Below the pieces are notes generated by a model. It was given only the letters and a program-made list of their open reading frames with translations, was not told the origin of the DNA and searched no databases. A program made the translations under genes and the position numbers. From positions 1 through 34,041 of the forward strand of contig JAIFLC010000065.1 in the NCBI GenBank assembly GCA_020049295.1: 34,041 nucleotides of DNA. The letters are read 5' to 3'. This document shows, piece after piece, positions 11,986 through 31,518 of this stretch (the first letter of the stretch is position 1; each line of letters begins with the position of its first letter). The stretch comes from Bacteroidota bacterium (lineage in GTDB: Bacteria; Bacteroidota; Bacteroidia; Bacteroidales; UBA12077).

Positions 11986-12828
11986 ATGAAAAAAGAATTT
12001 CCAAAAAGAGAAAAAAGAGATTACAAATCTGATGAAAGATCAGAAAAGCCTGCAAAAAAGTTTAGTAAACCTTTAAAGTACAAAGAAAAAGAGATTTTAA
12101 AAGACGAGAATGAACCAATTCGACTAAATAAATATATTGCCAATTCAGGAGTTTGCTCACGCCGCGAAGCTGATGAATTAATTGAAGCTGGTTTTATTAC
12201 TGTTAACGACAAAGTAGTTACTGAATTAGGAGCTAAAGTAACAGTAAAAGACAAAATAAAGTACAAAGGAAAACTCCTTAGCAATGAGAAAAAGGTATAC
12301 ATTTTACTGAATAAACCGAAAGATTTTGTTACCACTGTTCGTGATCGACATGCTGAAAAAACAGTGTTGGATTTAGTGAGAAATGCTTGTGATGAACGAG
12401 TTTACCCAGTTGGTCGTCTGGATAAAAACACAACGGGTGTACTTCTTCTGACAAATGATGGCGAGTTAACCAAAATGCTCACACATCCCAGCTATATTAA
12501 AAAGAAAATTTATCATGTTCATCTCGACAAACCTGTAACCAAAGCAGATATGATAAGCATTGTTGAAGGCATTCAGGTTGATGATGACTTTGTTACAGCT
12601 GATGCCATAAGTTATGTTGAAGAAAACGATAAAACTCAAGTTGGAATTGAGATCCATACAGGGCAAAACAGAATTGTTCGACGTATTTTTGAATTGTTAG
12701 GTTATAAAATTGAAAAACTCGACCGTGTTTATTTTGCAGGATTAACCAAGAAAAATCTGCAACGCGGAAGATGGCGCATGCTTACTCCTCAAGAAATTGC
12801 TATGCTTAAGATGAAATCATTTAAATAA
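11986..12828 (+). CDS. rRNA pseudouridine synthase (RsuA/RluB family) with an N-terminal charged extension
   Basis: S4 domain IRLNKYIANSGVCSRREADELIEAGFITVN, catalytic VGRLDKNTTGVLLLTNDGELTKMLTHP, and HTGQNRIVRRIFELLGY. Confidence 0.93.
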   Translation: MKKEFPKREKRDYKSDERSEKPAKKFSKPLKYKEKEILKDENEPIRLNKYIANSGVCSRREADELIEAGFITVNDKVVTELGAKVTVKDKIKYKGKLLSNEKKVYILLNKPKDFVTTVRDRHAEKTVLDLVRNACDERVYPVGRLDKNTTGVLLLTNDGELTKMLTHPSYIKKKIYHVHLDKPVTKADMISIVEGIQVDDDFVTADAISYVEENDKTQVGIEIHTGQNRIVRRIFELLGYKIEKLDRVYFAGLTKKNLQRGRWRMLTPQEIAMLKMKSFK

Positions 12829-13528
12829 ACTTCTCTCTGCGCTGTAAGTTAATTAATGCCCATAACATTGATATAATAGAACCAATCACTAGCATTAATC
12901 TGTTTTGTCCTTGTACATTTTTCCAAATTGTCATACTTATTTCGCTTGGAACATCAAAGGGATTTAAAAAGACATTCCATTTGCTATATTGCAGCGGTTC
13001 GTGCAGAATCCAAAATATAAGTCCAATAATGATTACAATAACAGCAGCACCACTTGCATTTCTAACCAGAGTAGAAAACAGAAACGATAAACAGGACAAA
13101 AAAAGCAATGGATACATGAGTTGATAAACCATTTTTAAAACCGGTATTCGCAAAATTGCAAAAACAGTAAATCCAGACATTAACATTAGAATGACGAATA
13201 ACAGAACCATACTAATTATAAATCTTACCAAATAAACTTTATAACGATAATTTGGAACACCGAATATGATTTCAAGCATTCGGGCATCTTTGTCGTTTTG
13301 AATATTAAAAATTACTGGATAAAATATAATTAATATCCCAGGAAATATTAATGTATTGTAGATATCGCTTTCGGTAGCAACTGAATTCGAAAAAAGCATA
13401 ATACCAATAATCATTAGAAAGAATGCCATTGCTGCAATCAGAAAATAAATAAATTTATTGGCAAATACGATCTTCAGATTGTATTTTACAATATCCCTAA
13501 CTAGTTTTATATTTTGTATTATGTTCAT
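12821..13528 (-). CDS. ABC-2 type transporter permease
   Basis: About 235 aa with six hydrophobic segments. NDKDARMLEIIFGVPNYRYKVYLVRFI resembles ABC-2 permeases. ATG at 13528 is preferred over TTG at 13543. Confidence 0.7.
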   Translation of the reverse strand: MNIIQNIKLVRDIVKYNLKIVFANKFIYFLIAAMAFFLMIIGIMLFSNSVATESDIYNTLIFPGILIIFYPVIFNIQNDKDARMLEIIFGVPNYRYKVYLVRFIISMVLLFVILMLMSGFTVFAILRIPVLKMVYQLMYPLLFLSCLSFLFSTLVRNASGAAVIVIIIGLIFWILHEPLQYSKWNVFLNPFDVPSEISMTIWKNVQGQNRLMLVIGSIISMLWALINLQRREKFI

Positions 13529-13535
13529 GTTTTTT

Positions 13536-13659
13536 AGTATCAAGTAGTGAGTATAGAGTATTGATTATAAAGATATTACTACTTTAATCTCATTTTTCAT
13601 ATCATATATCTCATATTTCAAGTCTCATGTCTAAAATCTAATATCTAATGTCTCAATTT
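13536..13659. repeat. Degenerate intergenic heptad-period repeat (two phases)
   Basis: agtatca|agtagtg|agtatag|agtattg (13536-13563) and tcatatc|atatatc|tcatatt|tcaagtc|tcatgtc|taaaatc|taatatc|taatgtc (13597-13652). Confidence 0.65.
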
Positions 13660-13664
13660 AATAA

Positions 13665-16600
13665 TTAGTTATCACTATTCAGTAAATACAAATAGGCGTC
13701 TTCCAGATTAGCTTTCACCGATTTAGAATCAGCAGTTGGAGCATTATCTGCCAAACAACGGCAGCGGATATTTTCACCCTCTTTCATATGATGAATAATC
13801 ACATAATTATCTTTCATTTTTTCGAAATCTTCTGCAGGTATGTTGAGCGACCAAACTTTTTGTTCGGCAATTTTAGCCATACTTATGGGAGCTCCCATAT
13901 AGCGTATATCTCCTTTTTTCATCACAGCAACCATATTACAAGAACTAGCAACATCTTCGATAATATGTGTTGAGAATATTACAATACGATCGCGGCTTAA
14001 CTCAACCAATAGATTTCTAAAGCGAATACGCTCTCTTGGATCGAGTCCGGCAGTTGGTTCATCTACTACAAGAATCTTTGGAAGATGAAGTAAGATCTGA
14101 GCAATTCCTATTCGTTGTTTCATACCGCCAGAGAATGATCCAATTTTTTCATCTTTATGTTCTGACATGTGAACAGCTCCCAACACATACTCAACACGTT
14201 TTGTTCTTTCTTCTTGATTAACTATTTTCTTTAAAATCCCCATGTAATGTAAGAAATCCCAAGCCGTCATATTTTCGTACATTCCAAATTCCTGAGGCAG
14301 ATAACCAATAAGTCCTTGTAGCTCTTCCCGTTTTTCACTTACATCGATTCCGTTGATCGTAATTTGTCCATAACTTTGCTCAAGTATTCCACAAATAATT
14401 TTCATCAGAGTAGATTTGCCTGCACCATTTGGCCCAAGTAACCCAAACATTCCATTTTCAATATCAATAGATACACCTTTGAGTGCTTTAAATGGAATTT
14501 TCTTTTTGCCAATTACAGGTATAACAAGCACAAACCTATAGAATGCTTGTCGTATTCCTTTAAACTTACCAGTTATACGATTCACATTTACTTGTTTTTT
14601 GTACAAATTGTCGGATGTTACTTTAATCAACATTAACAAATACCATATTACCCCCATTGGGATTACTAAGCCTAATAACTTGTATTTAGAATAAAACAAG
14701 AAAAGAGTAAACGCAGGAAAAGCCCAGAAAAATAGCTGAGTAATAAATAAAATCAAGCTGCTTATCCATTTGTTTTTATTTGCTGATTTTAGATTATATG
14801 CATATTTTTTTATCGGTTCAAGAACAAGTAGAGTGAGCAGATATAAGAAAATGGGTAAAATAAAATACCACAACCCATTCTCAAGATGGAAATAAATAAA
14901 AAACACGATAAATCCAATCAGAGGAAGCTGCCAAACAACTTGATCAAAATCTTTTATAGATTTATATTCGTTTTGTACACCTAATCTTTTTCTCCTGTTT
15001 ATACCAGATTTCCATTCACGCATAAAACGACTGTCCCAATCATAGATCTTAACCAAATTTCTGATCTTGATATGTAACGCTTCGTCTTTTTCGATAAGTG
15101 TTTCGTTTGCTTTTCTAAGACTATTTTGAATAAAATAAATAACTGCAGGAACTAAAATCATTAAAACAATAAAATCAATAATCTGCCACACTCTGCGGTC
15201 TACTTCGGTGAAAATAAAATATGATCCAACCAGCCAAATTGAATATTGAATGATTTTAATACCCGATTTTTGTCCACGCATCCAGTTTAATGATGATTGA
15301 AATCCCGAATTCATTGTTGGAATAAAAACCAATGTAAGCAAGGTACTTATGGTTAATCCACCAATAATTGTAACAGCAAAAGGAACTCCGATAAGTGCCA
15401 CATATTCTGATTTTCCAAGTGCCAGTGGAACCAAAGCAATAATAGTTGTAATAGCTGTGATTAATATTGGACGTACACGTGCAAGTCCTGCCATCATTAA
15501 AGCACGAGACTCATTGTATCCTTGCCGACGCAGAATCCTAGAATAATCAATTAAAATAATACCATTATTTACAACAATACCAAGCAAGATCAGGAATCCT
15601 GTCATTACATTGGTATTCATGATTGAAGTTCCGGTAAGAATTAACAGTATCAGTGAACCTATCGCTGCCAATGGGATTGAAAACATCATAACAATTGGTA
15701 CCGTGAATGACTCAAATACCGACGCTAGAATCATATAAATAAGGATGAAAGCCATGAGTAATAAAAATGCAAATTCACCTAGGTCTTCTTCTTCGTGAAC
15801 CACTTCCAGTGCAATGCCTGACGGAAGAGTCATGCCTTCAACCAGCTCATCAATTTCGAGCCGGGCTGCTTCAAGCAGATCCTTCTCATCCTGAACTTCA
15901 TTAATATATGAATAAACCAACTCTAATTGTTTTTCCTGGTTAGTACGTCTTATAGTAGATAAACCTTCGGTAAAATTAAATTTACTGATATTCTGCAATT
16001 CAAATTGAGAACCTTGTCCGCTGCGAACAGCCAACCCCTTTAGATCTTTTACATTTCGTTCTTTCTGATCCTCATATCCAATGGTTCGAATTAAAATATC
16101 ATATTCTTCAGTCCCCTCCTTGAATTTTACACCACTTGAAAACTCGTGCTGAAATGAATTTAATTCTGAAAGTACTGAAGTAACCGGGATATCATACAAA
16201 GCCATTAATTGCTTATCGAAATTAAGCATTAGCTCTGGTCTTTTTTCAGGAACCCGAATATCAACTTTTTCAATTGAAGTAAGCTGACTTAAATAATATT
16301 TCACATCATTTGCCTGATTCAGCATTTTATCAAAATCCTGTCCTTTGATAATTACTTTTTCGCGCTGAGCACCAATTCCCAGCATTCGGGCAAATCCATC
16401 GTCATCTTCGAAACCACCACCGCCAAAACGGCGTCCGGTAGCAGGTGGATCCCAACTAAATTCTGCAGGACTTACATCTTCGAGTCGTTCAAGAATTTCC
16501 TGTTTTATTTTTGGGATAGAGTAATTTCGGATATCCTTGAAATCATCAACTAGTGATATAGTTAATATAGCTTCTTCCTCATAAATCTGACTTACAATGT

Positions 16601-18299
16601 CTTTCTTTTCTTCCAGATTTTCGAGTTTTTTTTCTGCATCAGCAATCAGAATATCTGTATTTTCGAGAGTTGTACCACTTGGCATTGTAACATAAAGTGT
16701 AATATCTTTTATTTCGGCTTCCTGAGTTGTAATAAAGCTCACACCCAAACTAATAAGTAAAGTAATAAAGAATACACCCAATGCGCGGTATGATATTTTC
16801 TCGAAATTAACTTCCTTATCTTTTTTCTGACGCATTAGAAATGCATGCGAAATCATTGGAACTAACAACAATGCAACAACCAATGAAACTAATAAAGTAG
16901 ATATTATAGATACCCCAATATGTTTACCTATTAAGCCTATAAAGAAATTGGTAGAAAACACAAAAGGTAAAAATACGGTTACAGTAGTTAATGTTGAAGC
17001 AAATATTGATCGCCAGACTTCTTTTGTTCCCTGGACAACAGCTTGATCGGGATGCATTTTTTTAGATGCGAGCCGGTAAATATTTTCCAACACAACGACA
17101 CTATTATCAAGCAGCATTCCTATGGCAAGCGACATCCCCAGCAGAGTTAAACTATTAATTGTAATACCAAAAGCATAAAAGAAATTGAATGCAGTATAAA
17201 CCGAAATTGGAATAGCCAATGCAATAGCAACAACCAGCCTGATATTTTTCAAGAAAATCCAGAGTACAAAAATTGCAAGCAATCCTCCAATTAAAGCAAG
17301 TTGAATAATGGAATCGATATTTTCCTCCATCGTTTCAGCAGAATTGCTCTGTATTACCAATTCAATATCTTTTCCTTCTAAATCTGTATTTAAAATAGCG
17401 ATTTGATCTTTAACTTTATTTGCCAGATCAATAACATTTGCTTGCGAATCTTTAGTCAGGCTTATTGTTACCGCCTCCTTGCCGTTAACACGACTATAAG
17501 ATTCTTGCTCTTTTACTCCATAGTGAATAATGGCAATATCTTTGAGCTTGATTTTACCCTGCTCTTTTACAACCAGATTGTGAATATCATTAATATCGTC
17601 AAACTCAGAAATTACATTTACAAAATGGATCTGATTATTATGAGTAACCTTTCCGGCGAATGTTCTTGATTTGCTATTATTACTTAAAGCTGTTCGAACA
17701 TCTGCAGGAGTTATTCCATAGCTATTGCAAATATCCTGATGAAGAATGATTTCTATTGATTTTTCGCGACCTCCAAATACTTCAGCATTGGCAATACCAT
17801 CAATATTCTTTATCTGATTTATGATCTCTTTATCAGTTACCTGTCGAACTCTATCAATGCCACCACTACCCCGAACCTGAATGGTCATGAACATATTATT
17901 CAGCTGCTCAAGATCAAACTTAAAGACCTGTACCTGAAATTCTGTTGGAAGTAATTTTTTTGCTTCATCAACCTTTTCAGCTAGCTTCAGATAAGCATAT
18001 TTTATATCTGTATTTTTCTGATATGAAATTTGAATGCTTCCAGTTTGCTGACCTGATGTTGATTCGATTTTATCAATACCTTCGAGTGTTCCAATTGCGC
18101 CTTCCAATGGAATAATGGCCTGGTTTTCCATGTATTTCGGATCAACTTCCAAAGGAGTTCCAACCTGAACAAATAACATAGGCAACGTTGCATTTGGATA
18201 CAACTCAACTGGAAGCTGTTGATATGAAATGTACCCCAGCATTGTTAATGCAGTAAAAAACATTGCTATAAGTACTTTTCGTTTTATGATGAAATTCAT
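13665..18299 (-). CDS. RND efflux permease / multi-TM linker / ABC ATPase fusion protein
   Basis: Single 1544-aa ORF. Residues about 1-1007 are RND (GMSLAIGMLLDNSVVVLENIYR, GIVVNNGIILIDYSRILRR, LARVRPILITAITTIIALVPLAL). About 1008-1269 are several TM segments. About 1270-1544 are an ABC NBD (GPNGAGKST, FSGGMKQRIGIAQ, ILVVDEPTAGLDP, IVIFSTH). Confidence 0.93.
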   Translation of the reverse strand: MNFIIKRKVLIAMFFTALTMLGYISYQQLPVELYPNATLPMLFVQVGTPLEVDPKYMENQAIIPLEGAIGTLEGIDKIESTSGQQTGSIQISYQKNTDIKYAYLKLAEKVDEAKKLLPTEFQVQVFKFDLEQLNNMFMTIQVRGSGGIDRVRQVTDKEIINQIKNIDGIANAEVFGGREKSIEIILHQDICNSYGITPADVRTALSNNSKSRTFAGKVTHNNQIHFVNVISEFDDINDIHNLVVKEQGKIKLKDIAIIHYGVKEQESYSRVNGKEAVTISLTKDSQANVIDLANKVKDQIAILNTDLEGKDIELVIQSNSAETMEENIDSIIQLALIGGLLAIFVLWIFLKNIRLVVAIALAIPISVYTAFNFFYAFGITINSLTLLGMSLAIGMLLDNSVVVLENIYRLASKKMHPDQAVVQGTKEVWRSIFASTLTTVTVFLPFVFSTNFFIGLIGKHIGVSIISTLLVSLVVALLLVPMISHAFLMRQKKDKEVNFEKISYRALGVFFITLLISLGVSFITTQEAEIKDITLYVTMPSGTTLENTDILIADAEKKLENLEEKKDIVSQIYEEEAILTISLVDDFKDIRNYSIPKIKQEILERLEDVSPAEFSWDPPATGRRFGGGGFEDDDGFARMLGIGAQREKVIIKGQDFDKMLNQANDVKYYLSQLTSIEKVDIRVPEKRPELMLNFDKQLMALYDIPVTSVLSELNSFQHEFSSGVKFKEGTEEYDILIRTIGYEDQKERNVKDLKGLAVRSGQGSQFELQNISKFNFTEGLSTIRRTNQEKQLELVYSYINEVQDEKDLLEAARLEIDELVEGMTLPSGIALEVVHEEEDLGEFAFLLLMAFILIYMILASVFESFTVPIVMMFSIPLAAIGSLILLILTGTSIMNTNVMTGFLILLGIVVNNGIILIDYSRILRRQGYNESRALMMAGLARVRPILITAITTIIALVPLALGKSEYVALIGVPFAVTIIGGLTISTLLTLVFIPTMNSGFQSSLNWMRGQKSGIKIIQYSIWLVGSYFIFTEVDRRVWQIIDFIVLMILVPAVIYFIQNSLRKANETLIEKDEALHIKIRNLVKIYDWDSRFMREWKSGINRRKRLGVQNEYKSIKDFDQVVWQLPLIGFIVFFIYFHLENGLWYFILPIFLYLLTLLVLEPIKKYAYNLKSANKNKWISSLILFITQLFFWAFPAFTLFLFYSKYKLLGLVIPMGVIWYLLMLIKVTSDNLYKKQVNVNRITGKFKGIRQAFYRFVLVIPVIGKKKIPFKALKGVSIDIENGMFGLLGPNGAGKSTLMKIICGILEQSYGQITINGIDVSEKREELQGLIGYLPQEFGMYENMTAWDFLHYMGILKKIVNQEERTKRVEYVLGAVHMSEHKDEKIGSFSGGMKQRIGIAQILLHLPKILVVDEPTAGLDPRERIRFRNLLVELSRDRIVIFSTHIIEDVASSCNMVAVMKKGDIRYMGAPISMAKIAEQKVWSLNIPAEDFEKMKDNYVIIHHMKEGENIRCRCLADNAPTADSKSVKANLEDAYLYLLNSDN

Positions 18300-18369: not shown

Positions 18370-21300
18370 TTATATAGTTGTTCCCATTTTTTTAGTTCCA
18401 AACAGTTTTTCTTTAGCTATTTCAAAAACATAGTAAACACAAGGAATAACAATTAAAGTAAGAATAGTTGATGTTGTTAATCCTCCAATAACGGCAATTG
18501 CCATTGGCGAACGTAATGCAACGCTTTCACCCATACCAATTGTCAAAGGTAATAAACCTAAAATGGTTGTTAAGCTGGTCATTAAAATTGGCCTTATACG
18601 ATTTTCGCCGGCATATATAATAGAATCACGCAACGATATTCCCTGATCCCTAAATTGATTTATTGCATCAACAAGTATAATGGAGTTATTTACTGCAATA
18701 CCGCCTAGCATAATTATTCCAATATATGCCATAATGCTTAAAGGAATCCCGAGAAGGAAAAATGCCCAGATTGCACCAACTCCGGCTAAAGGAATTGTTA
18801 ATAATATAGTAAATGGATGAATTAATGATTCGAACTGTGAAGCCAGAACCATATATACCAATATAACAGAAAGTAATAATGCAAATCCCAAACTAGACAT
18901 GGCTTCCTGACGTTTTTGTTCTTCACCAACAATCTCCACTTGATACTCTTGTGGTACATCAATGGTAGAAATTTTTTCACGAACACTCTTAACAACCTTG
19001 TCGAATGAAACTGATCGGTCAATATCAGCTGTTACTTTTCCAATTCGGTTCTGATTTCTTCTAAAAAGTTGCTTTGGTGATACCGACTTCTCTATTCGTG
19101 CTACTTCGTATAATGGTACATTATTACTTCCATTTCTAAGTGTTATTGAATTAAACTCAGATAAACTCATATCGGGTAGCTTAACAGTAATGTCATTCAT
19201 TTCGCCATCCTTTTCATATTTACCTGCATCTTTACCCATTAATAAATCCTTTAATTGTGATATGATATTATCAACACTCATGTTGTAAACACCTGCTTTG
19301 TATCGATCAATAACAACATCAATTTCAGGTGCACCTTCTTCGATATTGGTTTTAATATTTATCAATTCAGGTATTTCCTGCAATTTGGTTTTAATTTCAG
19401 ATGATATTTGAGCTAGTACTTCCAGATCTTTTCCCTTAATTTCAACAATCATAGGAGCCTCATCTGTTCCAAGAGTAGATTGCAATGCTGTTTCGTCACG
19501 AACAATTGAAATCTCAGCATCGGGTATGTCTCCAACTAATTCTTCGATTGATGAAATAATATTCTCCGACTGACTAACATATTTTTTGTTTAACTGAATT
19601 TTAATGGTTGCAGTATTTTCATTTTGAAATACTGACTTCTCGCTGGTTGATGAGCTCGATGGTCCAATCTGACTATAAATAACATCTGCTTTTTCTCCTA
19701 ATAAATCTGTAAGCAAATACTCAATATTTTTTACAGTACCCGATGTTCTTTCCAGTTCTGTCCCTTCTTTAAGCTTAATCTCCAAACTAAACTCACTTGC
19801 CCCACTTTTAGGTAAATATTCTGAACCTACTTTAGTTAAAACATATGCTGACAGAGCCAACAAAATAACAGAGGAAATTAAAACGATTCCTTTTCGATCT
19901 AATACTTTTCCTAAAAATTTCCCATACCAAGCAATCCGAACAGATTTTATATCCTTTAATTTCTTATCGTTTTTATACGAATAGTTAAAAAGCATTGGAA
20001 TAACAAGAATGGCAACAAACAATGAAGCCAATAATGAAAAAGCAACAGTCCATGCCTGATCTTTAAATAAGGCACCTGAAGCACCATGTAAATATACAAT
20101 AGGTAAAAAAACAACTATTGTTGTAAGAGTTGAAGCCGTAATTGCACCTCCCACTTCAGCTGTTCCATGAACAGCAGCATCTCTCACAGACATACCTTTC
20201 TCCATATTTCTGAAGATATTTTCAACCACCACAATGGCATTATCAACTAACATTCCAATGCCTAATGCTAGCCCTCCCAATGTCATGATATTCATGGTTA
20301 GTCCATTAAAATACATGAGATTAAATGTTGCAATAACCGAAATTGGAATAGCAAGGCTAATAATGGCAGTTACTTTAATCCTGCGTAGAAAAACAAAAAG
20401 CACAACTACAGCAAGTAAAGCTCCAATCAAAGCTGAATCCTTTACTTCGTCAATTGCAGCCTGAATAAATTTTCCCTGGTTTTGAACTACAATAAATTCA
20501 TAACCGGGTAATGCTTTTTTTATCGATTCTAATGATTTAGTAAGATCTTCAACTGCTTTTATAGTATTAAACCCAGTTTCTTTATAAATTGAAAGGCCTA
20601 TACATCGTTTACCATTTATTCGAACAATATTTTGGGGATCTTTATTTACAAAACTTACTTTAGCTAAATCTCTCAAAAAAATAGGTGCTTTACTATTCTG
20701 ATTTGATTGAGCCTGTAAACTACTTATTTGTTTGTAACTTAATACAATATTTTCAATATCCCGAACATCCTTAACAAGACCAGAGCCTTTAATAATGTAT
20801 TTCTTGCCCATTTCAACAATAGTACCACCCGAAACATTTCTGTTCATATTCTGAATTTCCTGAACAATCTGACTTGTGGTTAAACCATAAGCATCCAACT
20901 TATATTGATCTGTTTCTATCAGGATTTCTTTTTCTTCGGTTCCGGTAAGTGTAACATCGGCAATACCTTCCAAACGAATTAGTTCATTACGAATATAATT
21001 TTCGCCCACTTTTCGGAGCTCATCCATATCGTTAATCTCAGGATGCAACATTCCTATAATCATAACAGGTGAGGCATTCGGATCGTGTTGTGTAATTGTA
21101 AACTCATCTAAATTAGCATTCTGACTATAGGTTGTTAATGCCTTTTGCAAATCCAGAAATGCTTCATCCATATCTCTGCCCCAGGTGTATTCAATCGTCA
21201 CTCTGGCAGAACCGACCATACAAATAGAAGATACCTGTGCAACGCCTTTTTGACGAATAGCCTGAGCTTCTATATCTTCAATATATTGTTTTTCAATTTC

Positions 21301-21474
21301 TTCTGGTGGACGCTCACCTGCTTTTATTTCAACAAATATTCGCGGGGCATTCATGTCAGGAAATAAGTCAACACTTAGTTTTCCGAATGAAATATATCCC
21401 AGTAAAATAATTGCAATAACAATCATCGAAACTGTTACAGGATTATTAACCGAAAATTGTGTAATTTTTTTCAT
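18370..21474 (-). CDS. RND efflux transporter permease (HAE1/AcrB-like)
   Basis: 1034 aa with GLALGIGMLVDNAIVVVENIFRNMEKG, GASGALFKDQAWTVAFSLLASL, and GENRIRPILMTSLTTILGLLPLTIGMGE. Confidence 0.94.
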   Translation of the reverse strand: MKKITQFSVNNPVTVSMIVIAIILLGYISFGKLSVDLFPDMNAPRIFVEIKAGERPPEEIEKQYIEDIEAQAIRQKGVAQVSSICMVGSARVTIEYTWGRDMDEAFLDLQKALTTYSQNANLDEFTITQHDPNASPVMIIGMLHPEINDMDELRKVGENYIRNELIRLEGIADVTLTGTEEKEILIETDQYKLDAYGLTTSQIVQEIQNMNRNVSGGTIVEMGKKYIIKGSGLVKDVRDIENIVLSYKQISSLQAQSNQNSKAPIFLRDLAKVSFVNKDPQNIVRINGKRCIGLSIYKETGFNTIKAVEDLTKSLESIKKALPGYEFIVVQNQGKFIQAAIDEVKDSALIGALLAVVVLFVFLRRIKVTAIISLAIPISVIATFNLMYFNGLTMNIMTLGGLALGIGMLVDNAIVVVENIFRNMEKGMSVRDAAVHGTAEVGGAITASTLTTIVVFLPIVYLHGASGALFKDQAWTVAFSLLASLFVAILVIPMLFNYSYKNDKKLKDIKSVRIAWYGKFLGKVLDRKGIVLISSVILLALSAYVLTKVGSEYLPKSGASEFSLEIKLKEGTELERTSGTVKNIEYLLTDLLGEKADVIYSQIGPSSSSTSEKSVFQNENTATIKIQLNKKYVSQSENIISSIEELVGDIPDAEISIVRDETALQSTLGTDEAPMIVEIKGKDLEVLAQISSEIKTKLQEIPELINIKTNIEEGAPEIDVVIDRYKAGVYNMSVDNIISQLKDLLMGKDAGKYEKDGEMNDITVKLPDMSLSEFNSITLRNGSNNVPLYEVARIEKSVSPKQLFRRNQNRIGKVTADIDRSVSFDKVVKSVREKISTIDVPQEYQVEIVGEEQKRQEAMSSLGFALLLSVILVYMVLASQFESLIHPFTILLTIPLAGVGAIWAFFLLGIPLSIMAYIGIIMLGGIAVNNSIILVDAINQFRDQGISLRDSIIYAGENRIRPILMTSLTTILGLLPLTIGMGESVALRSPMAIAVIGGLTTSTILTLIVIPCVYYVFEIAKEKLFGTKKMGTTI

Positions 21475-21522: not shown

Positions 21523-22572
21523 CTATTTAATAACCTTAACCTTGGATCGATTACGAAGTGTTTCAAATCCTTTAATTACAAGCCTTTCATTTTTCTCTAA
21601 TCCTGAAATAATCTGAACTTCTTCTGGATTTTCAAGTCCAAATATAACAGTCCGCTCCTGTGCAAGACCTTTATCTACAACAAACACTGTATTTCCACGC
21701 TGTTTTGAAAGAACAACATTTTTAGGAATAACTATTGTACTATCAGCAGATGCAACAACGATTTCACCTTTAGCAAACATTCCTGGTCTCATTCGTAGTT
21801 CCGAATTTGAAATGTTTATTACTGCCTTAAACGATCGTGTATCAGCATCAATAGCAGGTGATATCTGGGTTATTGAACCTACCAACGTATCTTCAGGAAG
21901 AGTATAATTCGTAATTTTGACTTTTTGTCCTGGTTTTATAAATACTAAATCCTTTTCTGCAAGATTGATCTCCATAAAAAGCCGGCTGTAGTCCATTAAT
22001 TTAAACATTAATGAGTTCGCATCAACCTTAGTTGTAGGAGTATAATAAGGCAAATCGACAATTACTCCAGTAAATGGCGCTTTAATATTCATTTTGGCTA
22101 ATCGTAATGTTGCATCTTCATAGGCATATTTTGCATTAATGAAATTAATTTCAGCATTTTTTAACTCGCTTAATGTAACGCCTCCCTTTTCGAATAATGA
22201 TTGTTGTTTTTCAAATACCTGCTTCGAAATTTCGAGTTGCAACTCTAAAGATTTGATTTTTATATTGTTCTCATATTCCTTATCTTCAAGTCTGATAATT
22301 ACATCACCTTGTTTTACATAATCTCCCAAGGCATATTTTTTACCTGTTGCAGGATTTGTGGCTAACATATAATTTCCTGTCATCTCTGATTTTTGGCTTA
22401 CTTCTTTGTCAGGATTTACAGTACCTGTAGTTTCAATAAACTTTTCGATTGATTGCAACTTTAAATCAATTACTGAGACTGGAACAGAAATGTCTTTATT
22501 CAGTTCTTTGTCTTCATTTTTGCATGAAACAATCACTGCAACTGCGATTAAAAATGTGATAACTCTTTTCAT
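21523..22572 (-). CDS. RND efflux periplasmic adaptor (HlyD/MFP family lipoprotein)
   Basis: Lipobox-like VIVSCKNE, the adaptor core GDYVKQGDVIIRLED ... INIKAPFTGVIVDLPY, and LRMRPGMFAKGEIVV. Confidence 0.92.
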   Translation of the reverse strand: MKRVITFLIAVAVIVSCKNEDKELNKDISVPVSVIDLKLQSIEKFIETTGTVNPDKEVSQKSEMTGNYMLATNPATGKKYALGDYVKQGDVIIRLEDKEYENNIKIKSLELQLEISKQVFEKQQSLFEKGGVTLSELKNAEINFINAKYAYEDATLRLAKMNIKAPFTGVIVDLPYYTPTTKVDANSLMFKLMDYSRLFMEINLAEKDLVFIKPGQKVKITNYTLPEDTLVGSITQISPAIDADTRSFKAVINISNSELRMRPGMFAKGEIVVASADSTIVIPKNVVLSKQRGNTVFVVDKGLAQERTVIFGLENPEEVQIISGLEKNERLVIKGFETLRNRSKVKVIK

Positions 22573-22602: not shown

Positions 22603-22667
22603 AGTTTAAAGTTTTTAGTTCCAAGTCTTCAATTCACCATTCACTATTGACCATTCACTATTCGCCA
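22603..22667. repeat. Heptad-period repeat overlapping the 3' end of the TolC gene
   Basis: agtttaa|agttttt|agttcca|agtcttc (22603-22630), then ttcacca|ttcacta|ttgacca|ttcacta|ttcgcca (22633-22667). Confidence 0.7.
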
Positions 22668-24142
22668 GATTTAATATTATTTTGCAACTCTTGTGGAACA
22701 AACGATGTATTGTTTTCAAAATCCCACAATGATTGAATTTTCATATTTAATAATTCGAGTTTATAGTTGATTAATGCATTTGCACGATCCATTTTCTTTT
22801 GCGATAACTGGGTTTGGAAACGCTCCAGATCTATACTGGTTAAGTCGCCGTTTTTATAACGCTCAAGATTGATATCATAAGTTAGCTGTGCATTTTTTTC
22901 GTTTTGCTCAGCAATTAAAATCTGATTGGTGAGGTTAATAAGATTTCTATTCGTTTTTCTGATATTTATAATAATATCTATTTCCTGATCTTTCATATCC
23001 AGTTCACGCGATTCAACAGAAAGCTCAGCAGCCCTTATTTTTGCTTTTCGTTCTCCCCAGTCGAAGATAGGAATAGAAAATGTAACACCAATTTGTGGAC
23101 TACGTGTTGGTTTATCATAAATATCTACAAAGTTCTCATTGTTTCCCATAATTCCGACCGAAAGATCTAAATTCCCCTTGAATTCATTGGTCGCTGATGT
23201 TTCAACTAAATCAAACTCAGCATTGTTTAAATCAATTTTTCGTTGTGTTAGTTCAAGCCGCTGTGTTAATCCATTTTGGATGGCTTTTTCCAAATCAATA
23301 AGAACTGGTTTATACTGAATATCGGTTGAAATTTCAATTTCACTTTCTAAAGAAATTCCAATTAATTTTTTAAACTCATCTTTTGCATTTTCCAGATCAA
23401 CCATTGAATTATCAAGGGTTGATTTACTGGTTGCATAGTTTAGGTCTGCTTGCAATAATTCTTCCTGAGCCGATAATCCACCACTTACTTTGCTTCGAAT
23501 TATTTCAAGACTAACTTTTTGATTTTCAAATTCTTCCTGTGCAATTTTCACGGCCATTTGTTTTTGATAAATTGTGTAAAAAGCTTGTGTAACATATCGT
23601 TCCATGTTAAGCATTTGAATCGAATATGCCAGGGTTGAGTTTTCGAGGCTAAGTTCGTATCGTTTCAGGTTAAGCTTAACCTTGTTATATGTAAATAATG
23701 GCTGATTATAACTCAGATACAGGTTATTATTAAATCCCTTAAAGCTTGAATTGCTGGCTTCACTATAATTATCCTGATATTCAAGTTTGTTTTGAAGAGT
23801 TATTCTACCATCGGTAAACTTAATAGGCTGAGAAATTACCAAACTTCCATTTGCTCCCATATTCTCTGTAGTATACCATTTTGCAAAATAGTCGTCATAG
23901 GATTGGGTGTTTGAATATTGGAAAGGTGTAACATCAAACGAGAAGTTGGACTTTAGCATAGCTAATTGCGCATTAAGATATTCGCGATTTTGCTCCATCG
24001 TGATCCTCGATTGTTTTATGTCAGGACTATTCGTAAGAGCAATTTTCATAGCATCTTCAAGTGTAAGTACCTGCTGCGAAATTGCATAATGGGCATTTAG
24101 TAGTATAGCCCCAATAATGATTATTATTTTAATTCGTGACAT
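22658..24142 (-). CDS. TolC family outer membrane protein
   Basis: 494 aa with a signal peptide, LTLEDAMKIALTNSPDIKQSRI, and GVTFSIPIFDWGERKAKIRAAELSVE. Confidence 0.92.
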   Translation of the reverse strand: MSRIKIIIIIGAILLNAHYAISQQVLTLEDAMKIALTNSPDIKQSRITMEQNREYLNAQLAMLKSNFSFDVTPFQYSNTQSYDDYFAKWYTTENMGANGSLVISQPIKFTDGRITLQNKLEYQDNYSEASNSSFKGFNNNLYLSYNQPLFTYNKVKLNLKRYELSLENSTLAYSIQMLNMERYVTQAFYTIYQKQMAVKIAQEEFENQKVSLEIIRSKVSGGLSAQEELLQADLNYATSKSTLDNSMVDLENAKDEFKKLIGISLESEIEISTDIQYKPVLIDLEKAIQNGLTQRLELTQRKIDLNNAEFDLVETSATNEFKGNLDLSVGIMGNNENFVDIYDKPTRSPQIGVTFSIPIFDWGERKAKIRAAELSVESRELDMKDQEIDIIINIRKTNRNLINLTNQILIAEQNEKNAQLTYDINLERYKNGDLTSIDLERFQTQLSQKKMDRANALINYKLELLNMKIQSLWDFENNTSFVPQELQNNIKSGE

Positions 24143-24209: not shown

Positions 24210-27200
24210 TTAGTCATTCTTCACCCATTTTATAGCATCGGCAAACACCATTTTTCCAATAGATTTATTTGTTAATTCAACCTTTGCATTTTCGGGTGAA
24301 ATATAAAATGTTCCCATATAATTCCAACCGTTTTCTAATTCTTCGTCAGCTAGTATTATATCGTCCATTCCATCATCATGATATATTTTGAAATTATAAT
24401 TTGATTTTCTTTTCTCCCTATTCCACTCAATATTTATCTTTTCAATATGACAATAAACATCATAATAAGCACCTGAAGGTAATTTGGCATTCCATTGGGC
24501 TATACGAGTACCATCACCTGATCTGGTATACATCCCTGATCTAATATATTTACCATAAAATCCTGATCGTAAAACTGATTTCCACTCTGATGGAGGGCTC
24601 CAGAAATAAATCCCGGTATACTTATATTTCGCTTTTTGATCTTTATTTATTAAGGATTTAAGATAACTTTCATTTGAAACCTGCACATAATTAAATCCTT
24701 CTTCTTCATTATCAACAATAATTTCATTTGGGCTGTTAATTTCATCGAAATACGGAATATTGTTTATAGCATCTAGCATATCGATTTTTTTAACATCATC
24801 AAAACCTGAAAACTCATAGACTAAATTGTTTGGAAGGTTTTCTGAAATACTTGTATATATATTCATTCGTGCTGGTTCAGTTGAAAATACAACACCAATC
24901 TCTTTTGATGTTTGAGCTTTTATGTAAATTTTCTTTGAATAATCTGGTTGTTCAGGTTCATCAGATCCAAAAGGTCTATTATTATTTTTATCATCCAGAT
25001 CAATATTCATAGTAATAATACCATCAACTGTTTCGGGATTAGTAATCTTAAAACGAATCTGGTATTTTGTAAATTCGCCATCCAGTACTTTATATGTTTC
25101 CAACTCTTTTATTAAAAATCCAGGCAGTTGGGTTTTTGTATACCAGCGATCAATTTCCTTTGAAATAGAATCATTATAAGCATTCCTTATTTCACTTTCC
25201 AACTTTTCGAACAAAAAAGGTTTATGTTGATTTTTGAAAATCAGATCATTTAAAAGCGTATTAAATTCTTTTTCTCCATAACGGGCTCTAAATAACGAGA
25301 ACAAATAATCGCCCTTTGCTAAAATAATATCGTTAATAGTTAATGATTCTCCATCTTCATCATCTTCCTGAGTAGTTTCAATTCCCTTTTTAATTAAGTC
25401 TTTCAGAGTTGATTGTTTCAGCTCCAGATTAATTTTTTCGCCTTTGGTTATTCCTCTCCAAAACCATCGGTTCGCCGAGAGGTTCCCTTCATTTCTTTCG
25501 CGCAAATAAACTTCAAGAGCTAAATTAAGAATTGGCCATTTCTCTGATTCAAGACGAGTTACAAAGGTGTAATAATAAGGTATAAGTGAGAAAGTATATT
25601 TATCGACAACTTCAGAGAATTGATACCACTCTGTTGGGGGTGCCATAAGATTACCACGCACAAAACGCTTAAAAATTCGGCATTGTAATTCCTCAGGTGA
25701 CACTTCTTCCTTATTTTCCTTCATTTTTTTTTCGGTATTTTTCTTGCGCTTTCGGAAATCGGTTTCTTCCATTACAACACCTTTTTCTGGATAAAAAAGA
25801 ATCTCAGGTTGAACAGCATCACTCACCACAGACCATATATGTTTATCCAAAGCAAAATGAACAGGCACTTCAGCAAATGAAAAACGTTTAAACCCATACT
25901 TTAAATCAAGTAAGCTTTCATATTCGTTTCTTAATTCGCGTATTAGGGCTGGAATCGTATCTTTAATCTCTGTAAAGTGCTCAAGATAATAATCATTTCC
26001 TTTGGTTGAATAAATTGAATACTCAATAGAATCAACAGTTACAGAATATTTTTGGTAATCGGCAATTAATAAGCTGATTTTTGGTAATGGAATATTATTA
26101 TCAAACTCAAATTCACCATTTTCATAACTCTTAACTTCTCCCTGAGAAACGGCTATTAAAGCCTTCGATGTTTTTACTTTAAGTTTAAATATTGAAAAAT
26201 CTGGTTGATAAAAAGCAGGTCTAACTGTTGCATACGTAACGCCTGAAATTGGATACCACAATGATTCGCTGGTTAAGCAAACAAAGTTTTTTTGGATATA
26301 GGCATAGCGTTTTCTTGCCCTAAAAATCTCCATATTAAAATTATCCTTATACTTATCAGGATCATTATCTAAAAAGTGTGTGTTTTCATTAATCTTACCC
26401 TGGTAATTGAATGTGATTTGCTTTTTGTCGTTGGGATCAGATGGAATAAAATCAGCAATTTTAACTAAATGTAGTTCTCTACTAAAATTTACAGGTTTAT
26501 TATTGATTTCAATGCTACTTATTTCTAATCCAGGATTAATACAAAAAATCAAAGTGTCAATATTTTGATTAGTTCTGTTTGATACATCAATGATCGCTTT
26601 TATCTTAATTTGATCACCCAGATGTTCTAGTTCCAAAGAGCATTTATCAGTATATACTCTTGGATAATAAGCATATTTATTATTCAATGCAATCATTTGC
26701 TTTTTTTGCTCAATTACATCTTTTTTAAGGTTGACATAGACATAAGCAAAATAAAATCCTACAAAAACAAAAAAGAATGTTAGTAATAAAGGCAAAAACC
26801 TGAATGTTTTAGATTGAGGTAATCGGTTTAACTTAAATATGGTAAAAAAGATTAATCCAATACCTATAAAAAAATAGATGCTCCGGTGAACAATTATTTC
26901 GTTTAAATTTCCAAATCCACCAACAGTGGAATTCATCATAGGTATTTTATAGGCTATATAATCAAACAGGTGGTAGTACTTTTCGTTTAAATAAAAGATT
27001 GTGAGAGCAATATAACCCAAAAGAATTATAAACGTTATCGCTTGATTTTTTAAAACGGTCATTAAAAAGAATGATAATCCCAGAATAAAAACAAGTGTAG
27101 GAATACTTATTAATATGGGATATAAAAAGAACTCACCAATTCCTTTAGCCGAGTCGCCACTCAGAAATGAAAAGCCCATTCCTAAAATCAGAATTATAAA

Positions 27201-27566
27201 ATTCAGAATTATAAAAACAGAAAGAATTCCAAGTGTTTTACCTATAATATACTGAGCATTGGTCATGGAGCGGGCGTAAATAACCTCAACAGTATCGTTC
27301 TTCCGATCTTGTTTTAGAAATTCAGATGCTAAAAATACAGCTACAATAGCTTGCCCAAGGTTTAAAATAATAAGATTTGCATATGGAATTGAAGCTGGCA
27401 AAGCTCTATAAAGCCACGGAGCATTGCTGGCATCAACAAAAACAGCAACATTAAAAATTCCTAAACCCACAATAAATAACCCTGCAAAAATTCTAAAAAA
27501 CCAACTCCTAAGGAGCGTTTTCATCTCGAATCGAGCAACAATTTTTATCGTTTGAAATATTGTCAT
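24210..27566 (-). CDS. ABC-2 permease with a degenerate M1-aminopeptidase-like domain and a golvesin/Xly-like C-terminal domain
   Basis: 1118 aa. N-terminal ABC-2 TM region (VARFEMKTLLRSWFFRIFAG), M1-like extracytoplasmic region without HExxH, and C-terminal NYMGTFYISPENAKVELTNKSIGKMVFADAIKWVKND. Confidence 0.8.
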   Translation of the reverse strand: MTIFQTIKIVARFEMKTLLRSWFFRIFAGLFIVGLGIFNVAVFVDASNAPWLYRALPASIPYANLIILNLGQAIVAVFLASEFLKQDRKNDTVEVIYARSMTNAQYIIGKTLGILSVFIILNFIILILGMGFSFLSGDSAKGIGEFFLYPILISIPTLVFILGLSFFLMTVLKNQAITFIILLGYIALTIFYLNEKYYHLFDYIAYKIPMMNSTVGGFGNLNEIIVHRSIYFFIGIGLIFFTIFKLNRLPQSKTFRFLPLLLTFFFVFVGFYFAYVYVNLKKDVIEQKKQMIALNNKYAYYPRVYTDKCSLELEHLGDQIKIKAIIDVSNRTNQNIDTLIFCINPGLEISSIEINNKPVNFSRELHLVKIADFIPSDPNDKKQITFNYQGKINENTHFLDNDPDKYKDNFNMEIFRARKRYAYIQKNFVCLTSESLWYPISGVTYATVRPAFYQPDFSIFKLKVKTSKALIAVSQGEVKSYENGEFEFDNNIPLPKISLLIADYQKYSVTVDSIEYSIYSTKGNDYYLEHFTEIKDTIPALIRELRNEYESLLDLKYGFKRFSFAEVPVHFALDKHIWSVVSDAVQPEILFYPEKGVVMEETDFRKRKKNTEKKMKENKEEVSPEELQCRIFKRFVRGNLMAPPTEWYQFSEVVDKYTFSLIPYYYTFVTRLESEKWPILNLALEVYLRERNEGNLSANRWFWRGITKGEKINLELKQSTLKDLIKKGIETTQEDDEDGESLTINDIILAKGDYLFSLFRARYGEKEFNTLLNDLIFKNQHKPFLFEKLESEIRNAYNDSISKEIDRWYTKTQLPGFLIKELETYKVLDGEFTKYQIRFKITNPETVDGIITMNIDLDDKNNNRPFGSDEPEQPDYSKKIYIKAQTSKEIGVVFSTEPARMNIYTSISENLPNNLVYEFSGFDDVKKIDMLDAINNIPYFDEINSPNEIIVDNEEEGFNYVQVSNESYLKSLINKDQKAKYKYTGIYFWSPPSEWKSVLRSGFYGKYIRSGMYTRSGDGTRIAQWNAKLPSGAYYDVYCHIEKINIEWNREKRKSNYNFKIYHDDGMDDIILADEELENGWNYMGTFYISPENAKVELTNKSIGKMVFADAIKWVKND

Positions 27567-27576
27567 ATTCAGATTT

Positions 27577-28467
27577 TTAAAAATTGGTTTTACTGGTTAA
27601 GTATTCCATAAAATAAACATAGGCATGTTCAAGATTTGGTTCTATTTCAATAGCATGATTTACATTCAGTTTATCACCAACTAACTGAACTTCCCATCCA
27701 TCTTCCGAAGGTATGGTAGAGATAATAGCATATTTTTCTTTCAGCATTTCGTATTCGAAACCTGAAGTATTTACTTGCCAAACATGACCTTTGGTTTTTT
27801 TAATCAACTCCTCAGGCGAACCATTATACTCAACTCTTCCATTGTTTAATAAAGCTAGATTCTGGCAAACACTCGAAATGTCACCAACAATATGTGTTGA
27901 TAAAACAATTATCACATCATGCTGACTAATTTCTGAAAGAATATTTCTGAACCGAATTCTTTCTTCAGGATCAAGCCCTGTGGTAGGTTCGTCGACAATA
28001 ATAATTTTCGGATCACCAATCAATGCCTGGGCAATTCCCAACCGGCGTTTCATACCACCCGAAAGTTTATTGGCATTTCGCTCACGAACATCAAATAAGC
28101 CAACCTTATCGAGCCACTCATCTACTTTTTCTGAACGAATTGTTTTGTTTGTTATACCTGATAAACCAGCTGCATAATCCAAAAATTCCCATGTTTTTAA
28201 TTTGGTAAAGAATCTGAAATCCTGAGGGAGGTAACCTAACATTTTGCGTATTTCGCCTCGATCTTTCTGCAAATCGAATCCATTAACCTTAATAACTCCC
28301 TCGGTAGGTTTCATCAATGTTACCAGAATTCGCATAAGAGTCGATTTCCCGGCTCCATTCGGACCCAGCAGACCAAACATTCCATTCTCAATTTCAAGAT
28401 TTACATCCGAAAGCGCACGTTTACCATTATCATAAATTTTGTTCAGATCGTGTATTTGTATTTTCAT
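27577..28467 (-). CDS. ABC transporter ATP-binding protein
   Basis: GPNGAGKSTLMRI, KLSGGMKRRLGIAQAL, IIIVDEPTTGLDPEERIRFRN, and VLSTHIVGD. Closely resembles the NBD of the RND fusion. Confidence 0.94.
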   Translation of the reverse strand: MKIQIHDLNKIYDNGKRALSDVNLEIENGMFGLLGPNGAGKSTLMRILVTLMKPTEGVIKVNGFDLQKDRGEIRKMLGYLPQDFRFFTKLKTWEFLDYAAGLSGITNKTIRSEKVDEWLDKVGLFDVRERNANKLSGGMKRRLGIAQALIGDPKIIIVDEPTTGLDPEERIRFRNILSEISQHDVIIVLSTHIVGDISSVCQNLALLNNGRVEYNGSPEELIKKTKGHVWQVNTSGFEYEMLKEKYAIISTIPSEDGWEVQLVGDKLNVNHAIEIEPNLEHAYVYFMEYLTSKTNF

Positions 28468-28559: not shown

Positions 28560-29195
28560 TTACCAAACACTTAATTGTGCCGTTTTAGATTTGCTTAATT
28601 GTTCAATGTTTACCTTACTTGTTAAACTACAACTACTTGAATCTTTTAATTCTCCGGTAAAGAAATTTATATCGCTATGAATCCAAAGACCAGATTGATC
28701 GGAGAGTGATGCATTCAGAAAATTTATTTCTCCAATAACTTCATTTTTATTAGAATTTGTATCCTCGTTTTCGCTGTTTTGAATTGTTAATTTGCTTTTT
28801 CCGTAAAGATTAATCTTTAACGAATCGATATGCTGAGCATTATAGTAAAGAGAAGAGTTCCCCAACATTGTTATCTGCTTAATTTGATAATTTATAAAGG
28901 TAATCTGTTTTTTTATAGAATCTATGTTCGAATTGTTTAGAATAAGTGTACTTCCATCCATTACTATTAAATTTCTAATACTATCATCAGAAAATGTAAT
29001 TTTCCGATCTGTTCCATTCTCTATTTTCACACGCCATCCTGATTCAACTTTTAATTTTGTAAACGAATCTAGTTTTAGTTCAAACATATTATTTTCCTTA
29101 TCGGCCAATACTGATTTAAAATGTAACTGTATTACAACAATAAAAATCAACACCAGTCCGAATAGAGAAGTTAGTATTATATTGCTTGTTTTCAT
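28560..29195 (-). CDS. Putative GIN-domain (adhesin-head-like) membrane-anchored protein
   Basis: N-terminal TM, then beta-helix-like repeats (LKLDSFTKLKVESGWRVKIENG, LNASLSDQSGLWI). Located next to a YtrA-like GntR regulator. Confidence 0.55.
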   Translation of the reverse strand: MKTSNIILTSLFGLVLIFIVVIQLHFKSVLADKENNMFELKLDSFTKLKVESGWRVKIENGTDRKITFSDDSIRNLIVMDGSTLILNNSNIDSIKKQITFINYQIKQITMLGNSSLYYNAQHIDSLKINLYGKSKLTIQNSENEDTNSNKNEVIGEINFLNASLSDQSGLWIHSDINFFTGELKDSSSCSLTSKVNIEQLSKSKTAQLSVW

Positions 29196-29212
29196 TAGTA
29201 AGTTGCTTTCAA

Positions 29213-29578
29213 TTATTTATGTGATTCAAATTCCTGATAAAGTGCTTTTAGGTCATCGAAATTGATGTCCAATAGTTTTATTGTTTTAAATATTGAAGGA
29301 AGATCTTTTTTAATAAACTCTTCTTTACGCATTTTTAGTGTTTTGTCGTAGGCATCTTCAGCAAGAAAATATCCTATTCCTCTTTTATTAAAAACAATTC
29401 CTTTTTCCTGCAAATAGCTATATGTTCTCATAACTGTATTAGGGTTTACTTCAATATTTATTGCCAATTCTCTAACAGATGGTATTCTGTCCCCATTATT
29501 CCATTTCTTCACAAGTATCTCATCACAGAATAAATCTGTGATTTGGAGATATATGGCTTTGTTATAATTAAATTCCAT
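29213..29578 (-). CDS. GntR family transcriptional regulator, YtrA subfamily
   Basis: 121 aa. wHTH AIYLQITDLFCDEILVKKWNNGDRIPSVRELAINIEVNPNTVMRTYSYLQEKGIVFNKRGIGYFL with a short C-terminal tail. Confidence 0.92.
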   Translation of the reverse strand: MEFNYNKAIYLQITDLFCDEILVKKWNNGDRIPSVRELAINIEVNPNTVMRTYSYLQEKGIVFNKRGIGYFLAEDAYDKTLKMRKEEFIKKDLPSIFKTIKLLDINFDDLKALYQEFESHK

Positions 29579-29579
29579 T

Positions 29580-30332
29580 TTAAAGCTCCTTTTCGTTAAG
29601 TTTTAAATAGGTTACAAACCAAAGAACCGGAGGAAGAATATAAAAAATAATAATCTTTGAATAGAGATTCATTAAATCAAACATTTCCTTTGTAAACAAA
29701 TGATTATTAAAATCGAAATTACCAAAAACAAAAAAACCAGACATTTTTACAAAAGCAAAAAGAGTTCCGTTTAATAGAAAAATAAATATGGGAGTTAGTA
29801 TTACAGGATATTTCTTAAAGCTTATGGCACCGAGCAAAAAGATACTATGAACAGATACAAAAACCTGCAATGCAATTAGCAAATCAGTTTGTAAGAAATT
29901 AACATTACTAAAATGATACCCGTAAATAGCGCTAGTTACCCAATTAAAAACCTGGGAATAAAGGAAATAAAACAACATCATAAATACCGTAAAACCAAGT
30001 AGGGATATTACTAGATTAACCAACAACTTTTCAAAAGAAGAGCCTGGAGTTAACAGATAAAAATGGGCGGTGATTTTATTTCGCAATTCTATAAATGAAA
30101 AACTGGCTATAAATGCCCCTCCTGTAAAAAGCATTCCAAGAAAAGCCATACTATGAAATTTCTCAAAAGTTATTTTGCTTTTTATTTCTTCGCCAAATTC
30201 GAAAGTAAGAAATACTGAAATAGTAAAAATACTGAACATGGCAACTATCACCAGCAAATTACGTTTCATGTTTGAATACAATTCACGTTTTACTAAATTG
30301 GTAAAGCGCTCTATATTGATATACCTATTCAT
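29580..30332 (-). CDS. Integral membrane protein, probable ABC-2 type permease
   Basis: 250 aa with about six TM segments, between a YtrA-like regulator gene and an ABC ATPase gene. Confidence 0.65.
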   Translation of the reverse strand: MNRYINIERFTNLVKRELYSNMKRNLLVIVAMFSIFTISVFLTFEFGEEIKSKITFEKFHSMAFLGMLFTGGAFIASFSFIELRNKITAHFYLLTPGSSFEKLLVNLVISLLGFTVFMMLFYFLYSQVFNWVTSAIYGYHFSNVNFLQTDLLIALQVFVSVHSIFLLGAISFKKYPVILTPIFIFLLNGTLFAFVKMSGFFVFGNFDFNNHLFTKEMFDLMNLYSKIIIFYILPPVLWFVTYLKLNEKEL

Positions 30333-30344
30333 ACTCTTTTGTAA

Positions 30345-31178
30345 TTAATTAAACGCATTATTAACAAGCTCTTTGTTCGCGTTAATAGCGTTATAGAGCA
30401 TTTCTAAATCAATCTTTGTCTCCTCGGAATTTACGTTCCTGCTAACAATATTATAACCACCCAATTCTTTGTCAGCATAAAGTACCTCTAAATCATCGTC
30501 CAAATATTTCACCTTTCTAAAAACCAGTTTATTTTGAATTTCGTCTGTAGTTTTGTCAAATATTACTTCGCCGTTTTCAATAATAATAACACTATCGAGA
30601 ATATTATCAAGATCACGCACCTGGTGTGTAGAGATAATAAACGACCTGTTATCGTTTATAGAACGAGCTATAATCTTTCTGAATTTGCTTTTTGAGGGTA
30701 TATCCAATCCATTGGTTGGTTCATCCAACAACAAAATCTTACAGTTTGTGGCTACTGCAAAAGCTAACAAAAATTTTTTCTTCTGGCCAAATGATAATGT
30801 ATTTAGTTTTTCATCAGTATCTAGTTCGAAATCAGCAAGTATCTCATTCATAATATCCTTTGAATATTCTGGATAAAATACAGAGTATAGTTTAATAAAT
30901 TTTTCAATTGTAATTGATGGAAAATCAAATTCCTCAGGAACATAAAAAATCTCTTGTAAAAAATACGGATTGCGTTCTTTAGGAATAAAATCCAAAACCG
31001 AATATTTACCCGACCAGGGAAATAATAATCCGGCTATAAGTTTTAGCATCGTTGTTTTACCCGCTCCATTATGGCCCAATAATCCATAAACTTTACCAAT
31101 GCTCATCTCTGCGTTTAAATGGTTAAACAGGATCTTCCTTTTACTATAACCAAATTTTAATTGTTCTATTTTTATCAT
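30345..31178 (-). CDS. ABC transporter ATP-binding protein (YtrB-like)
   Basis: GHNGAGKTTMLKLIAG, LSFGQKKKFLLAFAVA, ILLLDEPTNGLD, and FIISTHQ. Confidence 0.9.
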   Translation of the reverse strand: MIKIEQLKFGYSKRKILFNHLNAEMSIGKVYGLLGHNGAGKTTMLKLIAGLLFPWSGKYSVLDFIPKERNPYFLQEIFYVPEEFDFPSITIEKFIKLYSVFYPEYSKDIMNEILADFELDTDEKLNTLSFGQKKKFLLAFAVATNCKILLLDEPTNGLDIPSKSKFRKIIARSINDNRSFIISTHQVRDLDNILDSVIIIENGEVIFDKTTDEIQNKLVFRKVKYLDDDLEVLYADKELGGYNIVSRNVNSEETKIDLEMLYNAINANKELVNNAFN

Positions 31179-31191
31179 TGACTTACAATAT

Positions 31192-31217
31192 TAGTGTATT
31201 ACTTTACTAATACACTA
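31192..31217. promoter_or_regulatory. Putative operator of the YtrA-like GntR regulator
   Basis: Perfect inverted repeat TAGTGTATTA-ctttac-TAATACACTA directly upstream of the 31178 start codon. Confidence 0.7.
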
Positions 31218-31247
31218 CAAATGTAAATGTTTTTTTTGAAAATCAAA
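31218..31247 (-). promoter_or_regulatory. Bacteroidota-type promoter for the ABC/GntR module
   Basis: The minus strand reads TTTG (31247-31244), an 18-nt spacer, then TACATTTG (31225-31218), matching TTTG/TAnnTTTG. Confidence 0.65.
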
Positions 31248-31406
31248 ATAGTTGCGAGTTTTTTTTATATTAATTTCAGAATTTATTGAATACCTAATCT
31301 GGAGAGAAAGGCAAAAATCATTACGCGAAGGAGCTTTGCAAATGTTAAAAGATTTGAAAAATTAAAATATAAGAAAGATAACAACATCCTTATTTTTATA
31401 AATACA

Positions 31407-31438
31407 AATATCCCCGAGCAACCATACACGGGGATATT
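31407..31438 (-). terminator. Stem-loop, likely terminator downstream of the ABC permease gene
   Basis: 10-bp stem aatatccccg / cggggatatt with a 12-nt loop, about 80 bp past the stop at 31519, followed by T-rich sequence on the minus strand. Confidence 0.6.
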
Positions 31439-31518
31439 CTAAACTACACTCCTAGAAAAGAAATATAATCTGACACAAAGCTACGCTTTAAATTCTACAG
31501 TTCTCTCTTTTAATTTTG

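Follow-up and report, generated by a model that had tools for sequence, protein, structure and literature searches.

A putative ABC-2 permease with a zinc-less M1 peptidase fold and a golvesin-type domain, encoded in a conserved operon of ABC and RND transporter genes

The contig of a Bacteroidota bacterium analysed here (the window, 34,041 nucleotides at its full length) carries seven genes on its minus strand, separated by short gaps, in the order w17, w16, w15, w14, w13, w12 and w11. The first gene, w17 (27577..28467), encodes a 296-aa ABC ATPase (ABC_tran, E 3.7e-33), assigned to the permease encoded 10 bp downstream by the second gene, w16 (24210..27566). The following genes encode a TolC-type outer-membrane channel (w15, 22658..24142; OEP, E 7.8e-44), a membrane-fusion (periplasmic adaptor) protein (w14, 21523..22572; TIGR01730 RND_mfp, above cut-off), an RND pump of 1034 aa (w13, 18370..21474; ACR_tran, E 1e-222) and a protein of 1544 aa in which an RND pump is fused to an ABC ATPase in a single ORF (w12, 13665..18299; ACR_tran, E 2.6e-155; ABC_tran, E 3.3e-30 at residues 1273-1417). 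The operon ends with w11 (12821..13543), a small ABC-2 permease of 6 TM helices whose match to ABC2_membrane_3 (E 0.00098) is below cut-off.

The w16 ORF is intact and 1118 aa long, in agreement with the length and motifs given in an earlier note on this DNA. Its membrane part (residues 1-298; 26673..27566) contains seven TM helices according to hydropathy and AF2 secondary structure. In the AF2 model (pLDDT 86, pTM 0.82) the seventh is a long helix running into the ectodomain. Because there are seven hydrophobic helices and the last continues into the ectodomain, the C-terminal 820 residues are predicted to lie in the periplasm. The Pfam match of this region to ABC2_membrane_2 (residues 11-192, E 0.0036) falls under the Pfam cut-off; despite this score, w16 has both the 6-TM ABC-2 core and the partner ATPase that characterise an ABC-2 permease, and its N-terminal part aligns in profile comparison with the permease part of permease-M1 fusions. 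The ABC-2-like N-terminus proposed in the earlier note is borne out by the seven helices, the adjoining ATPase gene and the alignment to fusion permeases, besides the sub-cut-off Pfam match. Taken together, profile searches and structure prediction confirm the assignment of w16 as a putative 7-TM ABC-2 half-permease with an M1-aminopeptidase-fold ectodomain and a C-terminal domain of the golvesin/xanthan-lyase type, which was identified from the ORF, Pfam, profiles, AF2 and Foldseek.

The ectodomain starts with the region corresponding to the N-terminal beta 'saddle' of M1 peptidases (residues 299-520; 26007..26672), continues with the fold of the catalytic domain (residues 521-815; 25122..26006) and is followed by a beta-sandwich seen as strands in the AF2 model (residues 816-920; 24807..25121). 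A single-sequence search of PDB with w16 gave no useful match, and a family profile built from 58 sequences (A2) was required. Searched against PDB sequences, this profile matched the M1 metalloprotease 6a8z at residues 304-393 (3e-5) and the M1 peptidases 3cia (4e-6) and 3q7j/1z1w (2.5e-5) at residues 731-837, two regions that lie either side of the expected active site. Standalone proteins of M1 length also match at model positions 255-390. Alignment with hhalign of the w16 family against intact M1 peptidases of related genomes, a set that included the M1 gene of the source genome itself (L101), gave a probability of 99.5 and an E value of 2e-22. The earlier note had described an M1-like layout and proposed a Foldseek comparison with M1 peptidases; M1 aminopeptidases made up 50/50 among the matches listed for the AF2 model (best E 1e-16), with no unrelated fold. 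Both parts of the M1 fold, the beta saddle and the thermolysin-like helical domain, are found in w16, and because the PDB profile search, hhalign, and AF2 with Foldseek agree, the predicted M1 fold is a firm assignment. The fold is common to aminopeptidases such as ERAP1, PepN, tricorn F3 and the cold-active aminopeptidase 3cia, which possess the HExxH motif and the NEGFA glutamate, whereas w16 has neither.

The zinc site was studied in an alignment of 127 distinct w16 homologues. The helix at residues 624-639 (25650..25697) was taken as the HExxH helix and reads RIFKR-FVRGN in place of HExxH-xWxGN; the helix at 680-690 (25497..25529) was taken as the NEGFA helix and reads LNLALEVY in place of LNEGFAxY, so that the third zinc ligand is gone. 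The two helices occur in the expected order in the AF2 model, with a longer stretch between them. The register of hhalign is weak near the active site, and the correspondence of the motifs is inferred from helix order, column counts and our own reading. In the columns equivalent to HExxH, the first histidine (630) and the glutamate (631) are each found in 0/127 homologues and the second histidine (634) in 2/127, and at the column equivalent to the NEGFA glutamate (682) E occurs in 0/127. The HExxH(18)E arrangement of active M1 enzymes is therefore found in 0/127 homologues, and HExxH occurs nowhere in the w16 ORF, nor in family members at about 20% identity (L082-L084). The exopeptidase motif GxMEN also has no counterpart: G[GA]ME is absent from w16 and every full-length homologue scanned, and the equivalent region, of uncertain exact register, reads AVQPEILFYPE. 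What the 127 homologues conserve instead is W437, Y438, E566, P568, P587 and E594. Judged from the alignment, the M1 zinc site is lost across the whole w16 family (127/127), which extends to the family what the earlier note had noticed in a single ORF. Hydrolytic activity of the ectodomain, be it through an unusual metal or without any metal, is very improbable: E566 and E594 are indeed invariant in the 127 sequences, but all three M1 zinc ligands have been lost (0/3 kept), and no His/Cys column more than 90% conserved exists in residues 295-860 from which other residues might build a replacement metal site, a possibility that had been suggested for checking. A HETKH sequence in two homologues (L018 and L049) was not taken as an active site; that of L018 is situated near residue 885, beyond the aligned M1 region.

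The C-terminal domain (residues 994-1115; 24222..24587) matches Golvesin_C (PF25275) with E 4.8e-12 and 46.5 bits, above the gathering cut-off of 31.6, and profile A2 matches it to the xanthan lyase 6f2p (E 3.8e-10). The earlier note had assigned the last 163 residues to a domain of this kind; the type of domain holds, and its extent is reduced to about 122 aa. Because the golvesin end is kept in 125/127 homologues, w16 belongs to an old family and is not a lone decayed gene, and decay of a single gene as its origin is ruled out by the 127 homologues. The domain is also kept in the two distant members scanned (L083 and L084, of L082-L084), and D1110 is present in 125/125 homologues whose sequence reaches that column. 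A domain shared by golvesin and xanthan lyase has been found in proteins reported as lectins (PMC9166713). Elsewhere the golvesin/xanthan-lyase C-terminal domain is carried by a secreted lyase or a Golgi protein, whereas in w16 it sits on a membrane permease. In place of an exported substrate, its ligand might be protein or peptidoglycan. The interpretation of the earlier note, substrate capture rather than hydrolysis, is a reasonable hypothesis.

The second RND gene of the operon is arguably more unusual than the permease itself. In w12, residues 1 to about 1030 form the RND pump. Membrane helices and an ABC ATPase domain come after it, the latter with its Walker A, SGG signature, Walker B and H-loop motifs all intact. 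When roughly 180 residues comprising four membrane helices are excised, the ATPase and w17 align from one end to the other, and because of this the membrane segment (residues about 1089-1268; 14496..15035) can be placed within the ATPase domain, where it separates the first strand (LHIKIRNLVKIYD) from the remainder; domain alignment, hydropathy and the AF2 model agree with this position. In tripartite RND systems the pump is proton-driven and its protein carries no ATPase, whereas w12 does carry one. A frameshift or assembly artefact is ruled out, since the ATPase is present in 21/21 complete w12-type ORFs from different genomes. Loss of the RND proton-relay aspartate as a special feature of w12 was discarded: in homologues of w12 the conserved Asp is usually followed by Asn, and w13 has Asn there as well.

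Full-length members of the w16 family were found in about 40/294 genomes of the order. Permease and RND-ABC fusion occur together in 37 of these 294 genomes and are both absent from 252; three genomes have the permease only (G038, G153, G193) and two the fusion only (G260, G278), and in G038, G260 and G278 the missing partner falls at a contig end. In the GTDB collection, relatives of w16 are encoded by 436 candidate stretches. The best 80 of the 436 include isolates of Labilibaculum, Marinifilum, Ancylomarina, Prolixibacter, Mariniphaga, Maribellus and Sunxiuqinia, as well as contigs labelled KSB1, Krumholzibacteriota and Latescibacterota, bins that can be mislabelled. The order of the operon is kept in Bacteroidota and on the contigs with those three labels. 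The succession permease-OEP-MFP-RND-RND was found at 71/92 distinct loci; at 17 of the remaining loci the series is cut off by the end of the contig or of the fetched stretch, and at 4 a small or fragmented ORF breaks it. The ATPase gene lies directly upstream of the permease in 87/88 loci uncut on that side. Downstream, w11 follows w12 in 19/20 fetched loci, once with a 214-aa ORF between them; in L140, where the contig ends, it found no match. This fixed seven-gene ABC and RND operon, which the earlier note missed, is the most informative evidence on the function of w16. Its pump, adaptor and TolC-type channel genes lie together as in tripartite RND systems, and it resembles AcrAB-TolC and MdtABC in having one adaptor, one TolC-type channel and two RND genes. 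It differs from them in its two ABC-2 permeases and in the ABC ATPase, itself containing a membrane insertion, that its second RND protein bears. Open-access PMC text was searched for the w16-type permease, for the RND-ABC fusion and for the operon, and no description of any of them was found. The component families are all known; their combination appears new, as does the presence on an RND pump of an ABC ATPase that a membrane insertion splits.

The genes flanking the seven differ between lineages and give no clue to a substrate. The region upstream of the operon in the source genus (28560-33221, minus strand) encodes a short regulator of the GntR type, additional ABC transporters and a protein with a below-cut-off likeness to DUF2807. 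A GntR-type regulator next to ABC transporters is a layout familiar from peptide-antibiotic responses. This neighbourhood (w19-w23), together with a best NCBIfam match of w21 to PmtA that is below cut-off, would fit an arrangement in which the ABC-2 pump (w17/w16) and the RND pump are functionally separate, share the operon and are both induced against the same envelope-active compounds, and the dead M1 domain shields against or senses antimicrobial peptides. We regard this as possible but rather unlikely: only 10-11 loci have the upstream regulator and permease, and this neighbourhood is not conserved in most other lineages, whereas the core is kept throughout; the operon has a single TolC/adaptor set; and the RND-ABC fusion w12 physically joins both systems. 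A recurring protein of about 195 aa with a signal-peptide-like start is encoded near the operon in 14 loci (6002-6592 in L117, and 13 others).

The reading that we tentatively favour, at somewhat less than an even chance, is that w16 serves as permease to an ABC-2 type (type V) exporter within a composite ABC-RND system, and that its pseudo-M1/golvesin ectodomain captures the substrate and hands it over. The ATPase w17 and the permease w16 would extract an amphipathic substrate, for which a lipid, a glycolipid or a lipopeptide-like molecule is a candidate, from the inner membrane. In the periplasm, the pseudo-M1 cleft and the golvesin domain would bind this substrate but leave it uncut, and the ectodomain would hand it on to the adaptor, to the RND pumps (w13 together with w12) and to the TolC-type channel. 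On the RND side, a second step driven by ATP may come from the ATPase part of w12, probably in combination with the permease w11. The observed gene linkage is no proof of a physical complex. A functional analogy is offered by mycobacteria, in which DrrABC, an ABC-2 (type V) exporter, and MmpL7, of the RND type, each take part in the export of the same envelope lipid, PDIM (PMC11539658). Their operon is unrelated and contains no M1 or golvesin domain, so the likeness to the proposed w16 system is of function only. The strict linkage of w16 with adaptor and RND genes, and the invariance of W437, E566, P568 and E594 where the catalytic residues are gone, could also be explained if the main role of the pseudo-M1/golvesin domain were structural, namely to dock the permease onto the membrane-fusion protein or the RND porter domain, and if it bound no substrate. 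An M1 cleft and a domain of carbohydrate-binding type would be an unusual choice for a mere spacer, and no RND gene accompanies two of the paralogues (L088 and L096) in the flank that was fetched, which makes this explanation unlikely.

RND pumps are driven by protons and ABC pumps by ATP, and the two are known as separate machines. If the composite system favoured here exists, it may go as far as an undescribed class of exporter in which ABC and RND components form one machine: the RND subunit would carry its own ABC ATPase with the four-helix insertion, the dead peptidase/golvesin ectodomain of a second ABC permease would load substrate into the RND channel, and RND transport would be coupled to ATP. 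This stronger version is doubtful, though conceivable. If true, a conserved operon with an RND-ABC fusion would allow ATP-coupled or relay transport across two membranes to be tested directly. The dead peptidase of w16 is an example of a common enzyme fold reused as a transport ectodomain. The operon is present in cultured species of Labilibaculum, Marinifilum and Prolixibacter, and is hence testable.

The earlier note had stated that permease/M1-aminopeptidase fusions exist in Bacteroidota, and three were found in the same phylum (L085-L087), with HExxH intact and Pfam Peptidase_M1 above cut-off. Permease and M1 domain align with those of w16 across the junction (hhalign 99.6, E 1.5e-24), and the adjacent ABC ATPase gene resembles w17 (41-45%). 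These fusions contain two ABC-2 halves (12-13 TM), keep HExxH and have no golvesin match, whereas w16 has one half, the golvesin domain and no HExxH. Unlike w16, they have no OEP, MFP or RND genes recognised in the fetched neighbourhood. Paralogues of w16 with no RND gene recognised in the fetched flank were seen in three cases (L098 besides L088 and L096), in genomes that carry the operon too. Diverged permease paralogues with 25% identity to w16 are present in one genome (G285): at one locus (L099) a single paralogue lies just ahead of the ATPase gene of the operon, and at another (L100) two paralogues are consecutive.
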